This document shows positions 28,882 through 36,207 of a stretch of 64,000 nt of DNA, in pieces; the stretch's first letter is position 1; each line of letters starts with the position of its first letter. This DNA comes from an uncultured Candidatus Poseidoniales archaeon (GTDB taxonomy: Archaea; Thermoplasmatota; Poseidoniia; Poseidoniales; Poseidoniaceae): contig CACODE010000008.1 in NCBI GenBank assembly GCA_902625885.1, positions 1 through 64,000 of the forward strand. The letters run 5' to 3'. The translations under genes and the position numbers were made by a program. The notes below the pieces were generated by a model, which did no database searches, had not been told where the DNA came from, and was given only the letters and a program-made list of their open reading frames with translations.

Positions 28882-30621
28882 ATGAGCAATGAAGGAGTAA
28901 TTTACCGAATTTCAGGTCCCGTCGTGACGGCGATTGGCATGAACGCAGCGATGTACGACGTCGTTCGTGTTGGGCACGAAGGATTGATGGGCGAAGTGAT
29001 TGAACTGCACGGCGAAAAAGCCGTTATCCAAGTCTACGAAGACACCTCGGGTATTCGCCCGGGCGAACCGGTTCTCAACACCGAGGAAACCTTGTCCGTT
29101 TCCTTGGGTCCTGGCCTCCTGACCCAAATCTACGACGGTATTCAGCGCCCGCTCGCCTCACTCGAGGAAGTGATGGGTGTGTTCATCACCCGTGGTGTTG
29201 ACGCTGACGCTTTTGACATGGAAAAGACGTGGACGTTTGAACCACAGGTTGCCAAAGGCGACGAGTTGGTGAGCGGTCAAGTCTTTGGACACGTGCAGGA
29301 AACCGAGACCATCATTCACAAAATCATGGTCCCGCCCGGCAAAGGCGGGAAAGTGAAGTCCATTGAGTCTGGCGATTTCAACAACACGCAAACGGTTTGT
29401 GTCCTTGAAGACGGTACGGAACTTCAGATGATGCAGAAGTGGCCCGTACGGTCGCCAAGACCGTTCACTCAGAAGTACGCACCCGACACACCCTTGGTCA
29501 CCGGCATGCGGATTCTTGACTTCCTTTTCCCACTCGCCAAAGGCGGCGCGGCCGGTATTCCCGGCCCGTTCGGCTCCGGAAAGACCGTCACCCAACAATC
29601 GCTTGCGAAGTACTCCGACGCTCAGCTCGTGGTCTACATCGGCTGTGGGGAGCGGGGCAACGAGATGACGGAAGTGCTGGACGAATTCCCTCACCTCATC
29701 GACCCGAACACGGGCAAGCCCTTGATGAACCGGACCGTCATGATCGCCAACACGTCAAACATGCCCGTCGCCGCAAGAGAAGCATCGGTGTACACCGGCA
29801 TCACCATCGCAGAATATTTCCGAGACATGGGCTACGACGTGGCTTTGATGGCCGATTCCACCTCGCGATGGGCTGAAGCCATGCGTGAGATTTCGTCCCG
29901 TTTGGAAGAAATGCCCGGTGAGGAAGGCTACCCCGCCTACCTGTCCTCCCGTATTGCAGAGTTCTACGAGCGTGCCGGCCGTGTGGAAACGCTCAACGGC
30001 GACGACGGGTCAGTGACCGTCATCGGGGCCGTGTCGCCTCCGGGCGGTGATATCTCCGAACCCGTGTCCCAAGGTACCCTTCGTATCGTGAAGGTGTTTT
30101 GGGGTCTTGATGCAGGATTGGCTCGTCAGCGCCACTTCCCCGCCATCAACTGGCTCAACTCGTATTCGCTTTATCCACAAAGCCTTGACCAGTGGTTCCG
30201 CGACAACATCGCTCAAGATTTCCCAGAAATTCGCACCCAGATCAGCGGTCTGCTCCAAATCGAGGCCGAGTTGCAAGAAATCGTCCAGTTGGTGGGTTCA
30301 GACGCATTGCCTGTCGACCAGCAATTGACACTGGAGGTTGCTCGAATGATTCGTGAGTTCTTCCTGCAACAAAACGGCTTTGACCCGGTTGATGCTTACT
30401 GCGACATCAAGTTGCAATACGAAATGGCAAAAGCCATTCTCTCGTTCCAAGAAGCTGCCAAAACGGCCATGGCTGACGGTGCGCTGCTCAACGATGTCGT
30501 CAACGTGCCGGCCCGCTCCAACCTGATGCGTGGCCGCTTTGAGGAAGGCTACATCGAACGAATTGAAGCGATGGTCAAGGAGATGAACGAACAAATCGCC
30601 GACGCCGTGGAGGCCAACTGA
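28882..30621 (+). CDS. atpA: A-type ATP synthase catalytic subunit A
   Basis: This 579-residue catalytic subunit has the N-terminal barrel [16 protein letters not shown], the A-subunit insertion, Walker [10 protein letters not shown] (about residue 231), [12 protein letters not shown] with the catalytic Glu, [16 protein letters not shown], and [20 protein letters not shown]. Length is normal, so no intein is present. It is preceded by AAGGAGGAAG. It forms the head hexamer with subunit B. Confidence 0.97.
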
Positions 30622-30634
30622 GGAGGGGAAGAAG

Positions 30635-32014
30635 ATGACAGGAAAAGAATACAGAACCATTACCGACGTGAAAGGCCCGCTGGTCTTTTTGAACAAGACC
30701 GAACCCGTAGCGTTTGGTGAAATCGTAACCCTCCGTCTCTCCAACGGTGAAATCAAGAATGGACAAGTGCTTGACACCTCTGACGATCTCGTGATTGTTC
30801 AGGTGTTTGAAGGCACGGCCAAAATCAACCGAGACACGGGTGTCACCTTCATGGGTGACGTGTTCAAGCTCCCTGTGAGCACCGACCTGGTCGGTCGCAT
30901 TCTCGATGGTGCAGGTCGTCCCCGTGATGGCGGACCGGAAATCGTTGCTGACGAAAAGGCCGACATCATCGGTGCGGCCATCAACCCGTACAGCCGACAA
31001 TCGCCTCACGATTTCATCCAAACGGGTATTTCCGCTATCGACTGCTGCACGACGCTGGTACGTGGGCAAAAACTGCCCATTTTCTCTGCATCGGGTTTGC
31101 CCCATAACGACATCGCTCTGCAAATCGCTCGACAGGCCAAACTCAAGGATTCCGATGAAGAGTTCATTGTGGTGTTCTGCGCCATGGGTATCACGGCTGA
31201 AGAATACAACTTCTTCCGTTCCGATTTGGAGCGCACGGGTGCTTTGGAAAACGCTGTGCTGTTCGTCAACCTCGCCGACGACCCGGCGGTCGAGCGAATC
31301 ATCACTCCACGTCTCGCTTTGACGGCCGCAGAGTACCTGGCGTTCGAGAAAGACTACCACGTGCTGGTCATCTACACGGACATGACGAACTATTGCGATG
31401 CGCTGCGACAAATCGGCGCAGCTCGTGAAGAAGTTCCAGGACGACGTGGCTACCCGGGGTACATGTACACCGACCTGGCCATGCTCTACGAACGTGCAGG
31501 TATCGTGAAGGGCAAGAAAGGCTCCATCACGCAATTCCCGATCCTTACCATGCCCGGGGACGACATCACACACCCGATTCCCGATTTGTCCGGATACATC
31601 ACCGAAGGCCAGATTGTTATCAGTCGTGAATTGCACCAGCAGGGCATTTACCCGCCGATCAACGTGCTGCCTTCCCTCTCTCGTCTGATGGGGTCCTGCA
31701 TTGGTGAGAAAACCACCCGAGACGACCACAAGAAAGTCAGCGACCAGATGTACGCTGCCTATGCACAAGGTCGTGAGCTCCGTGGGCTGGTCGCCATCGT
31801 CGGTGAAGACGCATTGAACGAGCGTGATAAGCAACTTCTGGACTTTTCCGGCGTGTTTGAGGACCAATTCCTGCGACAATCTCGCGACGAGGACAGAACC
31901 ATCGATGAAACCTTGGACTTGTGCTGGCAATTGATGGCCAACATCGATACGAAGTACCTTGTTCGTCTTGATGAAGAACTCATCAAGAAGTATCATCCGG
32001 AAAACAGAGCGTGA
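30635..32014 (+). CDS. atpB: A-type ATP synthase regulatory subunit B
   Basis: This 459-residue non-catalytic head subunit has no P-loop, as expected: the site reads [19 protein letters not shown]. Other markers are [54 protein letters not shown] and [29 protein letters not shown] precedes the start, 13 bases after subunit A. The protein is standard in length and sequence. Confidence 0.97.
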
Positions 32015-32051: not shown

Positions 32052-32669
32052 ATGGCACTTGACATCAAGCCAACACGAAGCGAACTCATCAAGCTGAAAG
32101 GCCGCATCAAGCAAACAAAAAACGGCTACAAACTTCTCAAGATGAAGCGAGACGGGTTGTTTCACGAATTCCGCACGCTTCTCTCCGAGATGATCAAAGC
32201 CAAGCGAGATCTGACCGACGCTTACCGTCTGGCAAAAACGCGAATCGACCTCGCCAACGCCATTGAGGGAGGCCTCGCCGTTCGAGCGGCGGCCATCGCC
32301 AACTCGGCGCACCCGGAGGTCGAGGTCGAGCGGAGGAACATCATGGGTGTCGTGGTTCCAAGCGTAAGCGGTACCAACCTCAAGTCCACCTTTGCCGAGA
32401 GGGGTATCGGTTTTATCGGCTCTTCGCCCTACATCGATGAAGCCAGCGATTCCTTCAGCGAACTCATTGAAAAAATCGTCAAGGCCTCTGAAATGGAAGC
32501 CACACTGAAGCGCTTGCTGGCCGAAATCGAAGCGACGAAACGACGTGTCAACGCTCTCGAGTTCAAAGTCATCCCCGAATTGGAAGAAGCGAAAGTCTTC
32601 ATTCAACTCCGATTGGAGGAAATGGAGCGCGAAGAAACGTTCCGTTTGAAGCGATTCAAGAACAAATGA
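32052..32669 (+). CDS. atpD: A-type ATP synthase subunit D
   Basis: This 205-residue coiled-coil rotor shaft has the family N-terminus LDIKPTRSELIKLKGRIKQTKNGYKLLKMKRDGL and the C-terminal KRRVNALEFKVIPELEEAKVFIQLRLEEMEREE. GAGGTGAG precedes the start. It ends the operon. A large membrane protein gene follows after 67 bases. Confidence 0.96.
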   Translation: MALDIKPTRSELIKLKGRIKQTKNGYKLLKMKRDGLFHEFRTLLSEMIKAKRDLTDAYRLAKTRIDLANAIEGGLAVRAAAIANSAHPEVEVERRNIMGVVVPSVSGTNLKSTFAERGIGFIGSSPYIDEASDSFSELIEKIVKASEMEATLKRLLAEIEATKRRVNALEFKVIPELEEAKVFIQLRLEEMEREETFRLKRFKNK

Positions 32670-32736
32670 GGGCTGAACCTCTTCAACGAGGGATTCATGG
32701 AGGATGGGCCTCACGCCAAACCAAAGGGGGGAGCCC

Positions 32737-35268
32737 ATGGAAGACACGCAAGCCAACATCGAAACGGGTTTGCCCCACCAAAAGAAGGCATGGTCTCAAC
32801 ATGACCTGCTTGAATCAGCGCTCGGAGAGTACCTCCATGTGATTCAGAAAAACGGGGGCCGATGGCCCTCATGGAAAGTTTCTCCGGCAAGCGACGACAT
32901 CCACGACGACCTCGTTCGTTTGAACACCCACCTCGAAAGACTGGGTTGGATGGGGAAACTGACGCAGGAAGAAGAGTGGGTGGTCACCGTTTTCCCAGCG
33001 CCGGAACGGCAGTTTCCACAATCAAAAACCGTGCTGATGTTTTGGGTGTTGTCGTTTTTCACAATAACATTGGCTGGCGACCATTGGATGTCAAACGCAC
33101 GTCCCTCGGGAGGATGGTTTCACGCATCCTCGCTGATTGATGCCCTCCTTGGTTTCACGCTCCCCATCATGTTGGTGTTGGTTGCCGCCTCGTACATCCA
33201 ACGGCATGTCTCTTCTCGCTACGGGGTGCGCAGCGGGCACTTGATGCCGGTCCCTGATTTCACCATCGCTCTCTATGCGCTGGGTCTTTTTCCATCGTCC
33301 TGGCTTTTTTGGCCGTTTGGGCTGCTGTTGATTCCAACCATGCCTCGCATGGATGCTCGCCCATGGCCCAACAGAGCCTCCCTGGGCTTTACTGCACTCA
33401 CCGTTCCGCTCGTGCTGGGTGTCTCGGGTGTCATTTTGATGGTTGCCGGGCTGCTCATGACACCCGAATACCTGCCTTCATCCCGTATGCCCTTGGCGTC
33501 CTATCCGCCCCTGTTCCTGTCTCTGTTTCTTGACCAGCTCATCGGCAACGATAGCTACGTTCGCCTGTTGTGGGCGAACCCATGGACTCACGCTGGCGGT
33601 ATGTTGATGCTCTTTGCATGGGTTTCCGTTTTGCCGATTCCGACCTTCCCCGGCGGCAGGTTGTTGATCGCTCGAATCGGCCTTATCGATGCGCGAAGTT
33701 CCGGAACGCAGAGTTTGATCATGGTTACGCTCTTGTTTTGCGCTTACGTGTTTGGCGTCTTCGAACAATTTTCATTGTGGTTCCTGATTTTCGCCTTGCT
33801 CCTCCCGCTCTTGTTTTTCTTCGGCAACGATTTGCGAATCCCGCTTATCCTTGACGAAACCGAGGGTTTGAGCGAAGCCGATCACGGTCGGATGGGTCTG
33901 CTTCTCCTGCTCGTGTTTTTGTTCCTTCTTCCAGCGGCGCAACCGGTTCTCCACGAAACCACTTGGGACGACCCAATGACGCACGAGTTGAAGTCCCCTT
34001 CTTTCGCTGAGGAAAAAGAGGACGGCACATGGCTCTCCACCACGAAAATCCAAATCACCAACCCTTCGGCCTTGATGAAGCCCTTTGCCATCGCTGCTTT
34101 CCTTGAAAACCCCAACGAAGGGTGGTCCATTTCGTGGGACTGTGACGGCGAAGACACCTACAACCTTGGCGGCCAAGGGTGCGGCTCGGATTTGCTACCA
34201 AAGCGCACGGCTTTCTTTTGGATGAACCTCACTTGGGACAAGGCCACCAAACCCACCATGGCCAACCTGAGCTACGTTGTGGAGATGAACGGCGACTACG
34301 TTGTCGAAGCCTTCGCGGTCCGCCCGGCCCTCGAAATCGTCCCCGGTACGCAGTGGTACGATGTTCAGGCTGGCTCTTACACGCACAGGTGCGTGGACCT
34401 TGACGGGAGTTTGATCGATTCGCCGTGGCTGAACCTCAGCGTGAGCGGCTCAAACCTTGATGGGCTTCAAACAACTCTGGTCAACATCGCTGGTCAAAGC
34501 GGTTTGAACACCAACCTCAGCAGTGTACCGGATCGGTTTTGCCTTGAGGGCCTCGACCCGCTCGTTTTCGAACCCCAAATGGCCACCCTCACCATCAACA
34601 ACGATACCTTTGCGCCGTTGTTGCCTCAGAAGCGGCCTTTGACGGCCTACGTCCCGGAAAACGGGTGGGTTATCCACGGGGAGGACGGTTTCTCATGGGA
34701 AGCTTTGCTCGGTACGGGCATCTTGTTGTTGGAAGCTCCCCATTGCCCCATCAACGCCAGCATCGCCATGCCCGTCCGTCCAAAGGGTGGGGGCGATTGG
34801 AAGTGGGACATGAACGTGCGAACCTTGGGAGAGACGCCCAGCGTTGTAGGTGACGAGGTACTTACACTTCTTGTTCCACCCGGCAAAAATCTGTCGCGTT
34901 GCGACGGGACATACAACCCCTATCCATCGACGGTTTTCACTTCTGTCGAGGGACCAGAACTGCTGACCACCTGGATGAACACCACCTCGCGTTTCTGGAC
35001 AACACCGTGGGCCATCGCCACGAACGGGACTTCCCTCAACACCAACATGACCTCGTTTACGATTCACAATCCGAGCAACGTCAGCGTCCCAATCCGACTT
35101 GAGCGCGGGGGAAGTTTCGGCGACGATTGGGCGCACAATTGGGATGGCGGCCCCCTCGCTCCGGGCGATACAGTGTTTGAGTTGACGCCACCAAACGCTC
35201 CCTTGGCGACAATGTACATTTCGTTTGAATCCGGCTCGGTTGTGCTTCACTTGGCGAGCTACCAATGA
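32737..35268 (+). CDS. Site-2-protease-like (M50) membrane protein lacking catalytic residues, with large C-terminal ectodomain
   Basis: ATG 32737 follows GGGGGGAG and gives 843 residues; ATG 32704 is possible. After a soluble N-terminal domain (1-95), six or more helices follow the layout of archaeal site-2 proteases. TLPIMLVLVAASYIQRHVSSRYG aligns with the active-site helix, but HExxH reads A151-S-Y-I-Q155. Then come IPTMPRMDARPWPNRASLGFTALT and NPWTHAGGMLMLFAWVSVLP with PGGR (305-308) in place of the usual Asp-Gly-Gly. Residues from about 405 to the end are an extracytoplasmic beta-rich region. It is probably a pseudoprotease. It follows the ATP synthase operon on the same strand. Confidence 0.7.
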   Translation: MEDTQANIETGLPHQKKAWSQHDLLESALGEYLHVIQKNGGRWPSWKVSPASDDIHDDLVRLNTHLERLGWMGKLTQEEEWVVTVFPAPERQFPQSKTVLMFWVLSFFTITLAGDHWMSNARPSGGWFHASSLIDALLGFTLPIMLVLVAASYIQRHVSSRYGVRSGHLMPVPDFTIALYALGLFPSSWLFWPFGLLLIPTMPRMDARPWPNRASLGFTALTVPLVLGVSGVILMVAGLLMTPEYLPSSRMPLASYPPLFLSLFLDQLIGNDSYVRLLWANPWTHAGGMLMLFAWVSVLPIPTFPGGRLLIARIGLIDARSSGTQSLIMVTLLFCAYVFGVFEQFSLWFLIFALLLPLLFFFGNDLRIPLILDETEGLSEADHGRMGLLLLLVFLFLLPAAQPVLHETTWDDPMTHELKSPSFAEEKEDGTWLSTTKIQITNPSALMKPFAIAAFLENPNEGWSISWDCDGEDTYNLGGQGCGSDLLPKRTAFFWMNLTWDKATKPTMANLSYVVEMNGDYVVEAFAVRPALEIVPGTQWYDVQAGSYTHRCVDLDGSLIDSPWLNLSVSGSNLDGLQTTLVNIAGQSGLNTNLSSVPDRFCLEGLDPLVFEPQMATLTINNDTFAPLLPQKRPLTAYVPENGWVIHGEDGFSWEALLGTGILLLEAPHCPINASIAMPVRPKGGGDWKWDMNVRTLGETPSVVGDEVLTLLVPPGKNLSRCDGTYNPYPSTVFTSVEGPELLTTWMNTTSRFWTTPWAIATNGTSLNTNMTSFTIHNPSNVSVPIRLERGGSFGDDWAHNWDGGPLAPGDTVFELTPPNAPLATMYISFESGSVVLHLASYQ

Positions 35269-35277
35269 GGTGAAAGC

Positions 35278-36207
35278 ATGCGAATTTCAATTCTCGGCGT
35301 GGGGTCGATGGGCAGCGTGGTCGCTGCTTCTCTGGCTCCAACCGATGCCGAGGTTCATCTTCATGTTCGCGGTGAAAGCGGCGCCGCACGAATGCTTGAA
35401 GGACTCAGGATTCGAGGTGAAAAGAGCATCCGGGTTGAACCAACCCGATTCATGTTCTCTTGCGAAGAAATGCCTGCTGAGGACCGTTTGACCCACGGCT
35501 CCGACATCGTGCTTTTGGCTTGCAAATCGTATGACGTCGCCGACCTTGCAAAGAAAGCGGCCGCCTTCCTGAAACCAGATGGTTTGGTCATGGCCCTCTC
35601 AAACGGACTGGGCCATGTAGAAACATTGTGCCGGATTCATGGCCCTGAGCGCGTGGTGGCCATGATCACGACTCACGGGGCGTATTCTCAAGAAGACGGT
35701 GGCGTGGTCTGGGCCGGTCAAGGTGAGATTGGGATGGCCTCACCGCCGCTTGGTCCTTCACCGGCCAGGATGGAGGGTTTGGTGGTCCTTTTCGAGGAGG
35801 CCAACTTGAATCCGAAGCTTCACGAAAACGCTTCTGAGTTGGTTTGGGAAAAGGTCCTGCTCAACCTCGCCATCAACCCAATCGCGGCGTTAGCCGGTCT
35901 GAAAAACGGTGAACTCCTCGCCAGCGAACTTTTCAACGCTTCAATGATGGTGTACAGAGAAGCGGTTCTTGTGGCCAAGATGAGAGGGCTTTCGCTCTCC
36001 GATGAATTCACGTTTGAAACCCGGTTGCGCACGGTTTTGGAAAAGACCGGTGAGAACACGTGCAGCATGCTTCAGGACGTGAAGGCAGGTAGGACAACCG
36101 AAATTGGTGCTCTCAATCAGGTGATTGTGGAGATGGCCGAGTCGTCAGGCATCGCCGTACCGGTCAACCAGATGCTGACGGCTCTGGTTCGCGCTTGTCA
36201 TCCGTGA
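35278..36207 (+). CDS. panE: 2-dehydropantoate 2-reductase (ketopantoate reductase)
   Basis: This 309-residue NAD(P)H enzyme of coenzyme A synthesis has the N-terminal dinucleotide fold MRISILGVGSMGSVVAASL, the conserved DIVLLACKSYD and ALSNGLGHVETL, and the substrate-binding KVLLNLAINPIAALAGLKNGELL with the catalytic Lys. ENTCSMLQDVKAGRTTEIGALNQ is typical of PanE. GAGGTGA precedes the start, 9 bases after the pseudo-protease gene. Its last 44 bases overlap nadB on the opposite strand. Confidence 0.93.
   Translation: MRISILGVGSMGSVVAASLAPTDAEVHLHVRGESGAARMLEGLRIRGEKSIRVEPTRFMFSCEEMPAEDRLTHGSDIVLLACKSYDVADLAKKAAAFLKPDGLVMALSNGLGHVETLCRIHGPERVVAMITTHGAYSQEDGGVVWAGQGEIGMASPPLGPSPARMEGLVVLFEEANLNPKLHENASELVWEKVLLNLAINPIAALAGLKNGELLASELFNASMMVYREAVLVAKMRGLSLSDEFTFETRLRTVLEKTGENTCSMLQDVKAGRTTEIGALNQVIVEMAESSGIAVPVNQMLTALVRACHP

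Follow-up and report, generated by a model that had tools for sequence, protein, structure and literature searches.

The question raised by this locus is whether a multi-helix membrane protein that carries other residues at the catalytic positions of a site-2 protease (S2P) is an S2P homologue at all, and what such a protein might do in place of cutting. Its gene lies in the window analyzed here, a stretch of 64,000 nucleotides from a contig of an uncultured Candidatus Poseidoniales archaeon. A first-pass annotation of the window had described the product as a catalytically dead S2P fused to a large ectodomain.

The open reading frame at positions 32737–35265 of the forward strand encodes 843 residues when the stop codon is left out. 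A further in-frame ATG is present upstream, at 32704, but translation probably begins at the ATG at 32737, because it is preceded by a GGGGGG run and because the starts of the homologues coincide with it. Translation bore out the reading frame and coordinates of the first-pass annotation, as well as the segments quoted there (IPTMPRMDARPWPNRASL, residues 199–216, and NPWTHAGGMLMLFAWVSVLP, residues 281–300), the sequence ASYIQ at residues 151–155, and Pro-305 in front of Gly-306 and Gly-307. An artefact of assembly or gene decay was ruled out, since the reading frame is intact in genomes obtained independently, among them a record that assembles a whole chromosome (L120) and the record of isolate AG-333-I22 (L154). 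The features of the locus are collected in Table 1.

Table 1. Features of the S2P homologue and its neighbors, in positions of the window
Feature	Position	Strand	Basis
atpA, A-type ATPase subunit A, conserved neighbor	28882..30621	+	
atpB, A-type ATPase subunit B, conserved neighbor	30635..32014	+	
atpD, A-type ATPase subunit D, directly upstream in every locus with readable flanks	32052..32669	+	
Shine-Dalgarno-like run GGGGGG, 5' of ATG 32737	32726..32731	+	Read from sequence
Homologue of EGY-type S2Ps, almost certainly dead; complete gene, 843 aa plus stop	32737..35268	+	Open reading frame and translation
N-terminal cytoplasmic alpha/beta domain, residues 19–90, common to active EGY-type S2Ps	32791..33006	+	hhalign from column 15; AF2 pLDDT about 85–93
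Helix equivalent to the HExxH helix of active S2Ps, residues 132–161	33130..33219	+	AF2 helix; alignment
Former HExxH, A151-S152-Y153-I154-Q155	33187..33201	+	Aligned with HEMGH of sister-order homologues; column counts
WPFG, membrane-associated beta-hairpin and PNR segment, residues 192–213	33310..33375	+	hhalign
Broken helix equivalent to the S2P Asp-ligand helix, residues 282–318	33580..33690	+	AF2 helices 282–297 and 305–318; alignment
Former LDGG, now F304-P305-G306-G307, with Pro in place of the Asp that is the third zinc ligand	33646..33657	+	Aligned with LDGG
Extracytoplasmic ectodomain, all-beta Ig-like tandem, residues 405–843	33949..35265	+	AF2, Foldseek, Cys, sequons
panE-like ketopantoate reductase, conserved neighbor at a distance of 9 bp on the downstream side	35278..36207	+	Name from sequence appearance

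When used as a single sequence, the 843-residue protein has no match in Pfam or the Protein Data Bank, and in NCBIfam it reaches only exosortase TIGR04178 below the cut-off (E = 0.007, 2 of 29 members), a match that was rejected as a chance hydrophobic likeness. A family profile was made from an alignment of 29 sequences in which both Poseidoniales families are included. Using hhalign, this profile matches the active EGY-type S2Ps of Thermoplasmatota with E = 8.7e-26 over some 410 columns (columns 15–462), and the homologues from the sister order with E = 2.5e-18. As controls, the reversed profile gave 0.23 and five block-shuffled profiles gave 0.035–0.22; the PDZ-type M50 paralogue gave 0.21. 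The active EGY-type family in turn matches Pfam M50 at 2.8e-20, and its profile, through which the Poseidoniales family is linked to MjS2P (3b4r), the solved archaeal S2P, matches that protein with E = 5.2e-8, placing HExxH on HELGH and LDGG on MDGG. MjS2P is an active zinc protease that has neither the N-terminal nor a large C-terminal domain. The homology to the active EGY-type S2Ps takes in the N-terminal domain and reaches the start of the ectodomain, to about residue 470. The rhomboid families in Pfam are matched by neither the protein nor the family, and the homology is to M50. The M50/S2P likeness of the membrane half, proposed at first pass from the protein alone, is thus borne out by a match that is significant at the profile level; the homology of the family is solid, although it is transitive.

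In the alignment with the sister-order homologues, HEMGH falls letter for letter on ASYIQ, and the LDGGH of active homologues falls on FPGGR, with the Asp on Pro-305, so that both replacements read from the single sequence were confirmed. Column counts were made over 101 distinct family sequences from Marine Group II. Position 151 is Ala in 94 of these and otherwise Ser, Thr, Val, Gly, or a gap; position 152 is Ser in 90 and never Glu; position 155 is Gln in 84 (Arg in 13, Lys in 2, His in 1, and a gap in 1); and position 305 is Pro in 100, Ala in 1, and never Asp. None of the 101 has H-E-x-x-H in the HExxH column, and none has the H-E-H-D set at the four catalytic and zinc columns. The single Ala at position 305 belongs to a protein of genus g5 (L036, genome G033, contig C12) that reads LAGG instead of FPGG and is the nearest member to Pfam M50. 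The counts indicate that the Poseidoniales family lacks all four catalytic and zinc-binding residues: the two His and the Glu of HExxH as well as the LDG Asp. By what is established for M50 enzymes, their loss rules out a zinc-dependent peptidase, and the protein therefore cannot be a zinc protease.

Two other identities for the protein were considered. A multi-pass membrane protein of other descent that resembles M50 by chance would explain why the protein on its own finds no Pfam, NCBIfam, or PDB match. It would also explain why searches of the PDB with Foldseek found no S2P for either AlphaFold model, searches that used models from one-family alignments and had no positive control. The profile E-values of 1e-18 to 1e-26, however, lie far below those of the reversed and block-shuffled controls, which are near 0.1, and for this reason the likeness is not due to chance. 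One family member reaches Pfam M50 by itself (PF02163, E = 1.2e-5), and the inclusion of the N-terminal domain in the homology also speaks against coincidence, which we regard as extremely improbable. A residual hydrolase, with another metal site or a different chemistry, is scarcely more credible. A few ligand-type residues in the membrane half are conserved among the 101 sequences (His-168 in 89%, Asp-206 in 90%, His-281 in 98%, and Glu-374 in 88%) and could be taken for such a site. However, His-281, the only strongly conserved His, is Asn in the 843-residue protein itself, His-168 and Asp-206 are restricted to part of the Poseidoniales in the alignments displayed, these two form no HExxH-like cluster, and the active relatives have no equivalent set. 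The column counts rule out an alternative zinc site, since they show no conserved substitute ligands anywhere in the membrane half, and the zinc ligands were not found to have moved elsewhere in the fold. The protein is almost certainly a dead EGY-type S2P.

Homologues are present in 58 of 59 close relatives and, across the class, in 313 of 340 genomes. The dead form, counted from the genomes listed, occurs in 306 of 319 Poseidoniales genomes; it is single-copy and near-universal in the order. The named records that carry it are Candidatus Poseidonia and Poseidoniales, which correspond to Marine Group II. Among the few fairly complete Poseidoniales genomes that yielded no member is one of family f2 (G050, 90% complete), through either true loss or an assembly gap. 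The class also contains a sister order, in which homologues were found in 7 of 21 genomes; all are active enzymes that keep HE(M/F)(G/A)H and LDGGH.

A sister-order profile was then searched against 390 genomes of the phylum. Outside the Poseidoniales, strong EGY-type matches were obtained (about 1e-38 to 1e-293), and HExxH is present in all 30 of the sequences read. Within the Poseidoniales, no active EGY-type gene was detected: matches are either absent or weak (7e-4 to 4e-17), about as strong as the dead family itself should give, so that an active EGY-type copy kept beside the dead one is not supported. An active EGY-type gene was likewise not detected in a one-contig Poseidoniales genome of 96% completeness (G113). 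The other M50 genes read in the order belong to a PDZ type and a short type, and HExxH is intact in each. The source genome has this usual set as two intact proteases, one with HEYGH and a PDZ-like segment (L001, C2:123190-124116) and one of about 320 aa with HEIGH (L002, C3:54383-54844).

In the phylogenetic tree, the dead proteins form one clade (support 95) that is sister to the active EGY-type clade (support 99) and stands apart from the two active M50 paralogues. The stem branch to the dead clade is long, and its exact place among the active EGY-type genes is uncertain. The tree and the hhalign value of 0.21 rule out an origin from the PDZ-type paralogue and place the family in the EGY-type clade of archaeal S2Ps rather than with PDZ-type M50. 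In the Poseidoniales, the dead form replaces the active EGY-type gene that the rest of the phylum keeps. The simplest reading is that activity was lost once, in or before the ancestor of the Poseidoniales.

The active EGY-type S2Ps of Thermoplasmatota share with the dead family the domain order, the N-terminal domain, the membrane core, the PNR and HP..AG motifs, and an extracytoplasmic C-terminal domain. The dead family differs from these HExxH- and LDGGH-containing enzymes in that it has none of the zinc and catalytic residues, in an enlarged ectodomain, which spans about 440 residues and has six cysteines that are conserved, and in the position of its gene next to those of the A-type ATPase. 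Residues 192–213 match the segment (P)FGTFGAFIS.REPIPNR of the active enzymes in the hhalign alignment. Among 52 Poseidoniaceae sequences, Ala-151, Pro-305, Trp-192, Pro-193, Phe-194, and Gly-195 are invariant. The loop after the dead helix carries an 11-residue insertion, PDFTIALYALG (residues 173–183, positions 33253–33285), which is found in some Poseidoniaceae genera only and is absent from the other Poseidoniales family. The median dN/dS, calculated by the Nei-Gojobori method for 64 pairs, is 0.055 for the membrane half and 0.093 for the ectodomain. Strong purifying selection thus acts on the dead membrane half, and the family is so well preserved that it must have another job. The AlphaFold models, built from alignments that contained neither the other Poseidoniales family nor the active relatives, have a pTM of 0.68 for the full-length protein and 0.83 for residues 18–408. 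The order of helices and hairpin fits the S2P layout, but neither model brought up an S2P in the Foldseek searches of the PDB. Parts of the transmembrane region have a pLDDT of 50–70.

Beyond the last predicted transmembrane helix there are about 439 residues, in agreement with the extracytoplasmic domain of about 440 residues given by the first-pass annotation. The strands predicted for it have pLDDT values mostly above 85 (about 85–93), and Foldseek matches it to tandem Ig-like proteins with low TM-scores. Its six cysteines (469, 482, 552, 602, 670, and 722) are 98–100% conserved across the 101 sequences. It contains a mean of 10.7 N-x-S/T sequons, compared with 4.3 in shuffled sequences and 1.2 in the membrane half. 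The predicted number of transmembrane helices is odd, which fits an outside location, and the C-terminal half is a real extracytoplasmic domain. The description of this domain as a fusion did not hold, since in active relatives LDG is already followed by a C-terminal ectodomain of about 85–443 residues. Because of this, and because the homology runs into its start, the ectodomain is an enlarged ancestral domain and not a new fusion.

The order atpA-atpB-atpD-gene-panE was found in all loci with readable flanks, about 80 in number and from both Poseidoniales families. The S2P homologue begins about 70 bp downstream of atpD, and the spacing from it to panE has a median of 9 bp. In six other Thermoplasmatota examined, no S2P gene follows atpD. 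To our knowledge, panE has no role in the ATPase. Because panE is an equally constant neighbor, the link of the S2P homologue to the A-ATPase is suggestive only. One record deposited as an uncultured Rhodobiaceae bacterium (L167, CALDQY010000135.1) carries both the family and the Poseidoniales gene order, and looks like a mis-binned archaeal contig.

For the role of the dead protein, we lean toward a membrane scaffold or chaperone that binds clients without cutting them, by analogy with other pseudoproteases. The EGY-type S2P of the Poseidoniales would have turned into a pseudoprotease no later than in the last ancestor common to the order, with its N-terminal cytoplasmic domain, S2P-like multi-helix membrane core, and C-terminal ectodomain kept. 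Transmembrane segments of clients may be bound or held by the former substrate cleft and the beta-hairpin, and the putatively glycosylated, disulphide-linked ectodomain may engage partners outside as a second contact. A candidate client would be the A-ATPase encoded just upstream. According to a study on RseP, the beta-hairpin close to the active site of S2Ps takes part in recognizing substrates (PMC4597795); taken with the invariant WPFG segment of the dead family, this was counted in favor of client binding.

It is also conceivable, but rather unlikely, that the degenerate core is a mere anchor that displays an Ig-like glycosylated ectodomain, in which the function would reside. The size of the ectodomain, its six conserved cysteines, its excess of sequons, and its likeness to Ig-like folds of surface and adhesion proteins would all suit such an anchor, as would purifying selection taken by itself. 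The membrane half, however, is more constrained than the ectodomain, and this speaks against a plain anchor. The residues of the former active site and hairpin are nearly invariant, whereas drift would be expected in a plain anchor. A factor dedicated to the assembly, stability, or tethering of the A-type ATP synthase, encoded in an apparent operon with it, would account for the constant gene order in both families, the short distance to atpD, and the lack of an S2P behind atpD in the six other Thermoplasmatota. Since panE is just as constant and even closer, the synteny may be plain order-wide conservation, and we consider a dedicated factor improbable. Equally doubtful is the fuller proposal that the Poseidoniales hold the first prokaryotic S2P pseudoprotease, its gene having moved into the ATP synthase operon and its product now helping, in the membrane, with assembly or quality control of the complex. 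Client binding by a pseudoprotease remains the favored account.

The closest known parallel is plant EGY3, an S2P homologue without HExxH that acts as a chloroplast pseudoprotease and stabilizes other proteins without proteolysis (PMC10978774, PMC9355673). A 2022 paper presented it as the sole pseudoenzyme with homology to the S2P family and as confined to plants (PMC9355673). Compared by descriptions, EGY3 and the Poseidoniales form are both S2P homologues without HExxH that are conserved across a large lineage. In contrast to EGY3, a plant thylakoid protein that exists beside the active paralogues EGY1 and EGY2, the Poseidoniales form is single-copy and replaces its active counterpart; it is also archaeal, has a large ectodomain, and has lost the Asp of LDG. 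Since the enzyme is active elsewhere in the phylum, the two losses of activity are likely independent. Among the rhomboids, pseudoproteases are well known. The iRhoms bind the transmembrane domains of their clients, and iRhoms and derlins follow the same logic of an inactive intramembrane protease retained for client binding (PMC6451368), although they differ in fold and protease class and offer an analogy only.

The literature searched, which took in few subscription journals, yielded no account of an archaeal S2P that is dead, and plant EGY3 is the only S2P pseudoprotease described in it. Conserved across its lineage under selection without HExxH, the Poseidoniales family has the characteristics of an S2P pseudoprotease, and it would be the second such case beside EGY3, probably of independent origin. 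In the surface ocean, Marine Group II ranks among the most abundant archaea. The dead form stands in for the active enzyme and not beside it, and because it is near-universal and strongly constrained in that place, it offers a natural way to test what else the S2P core does besides cutting.
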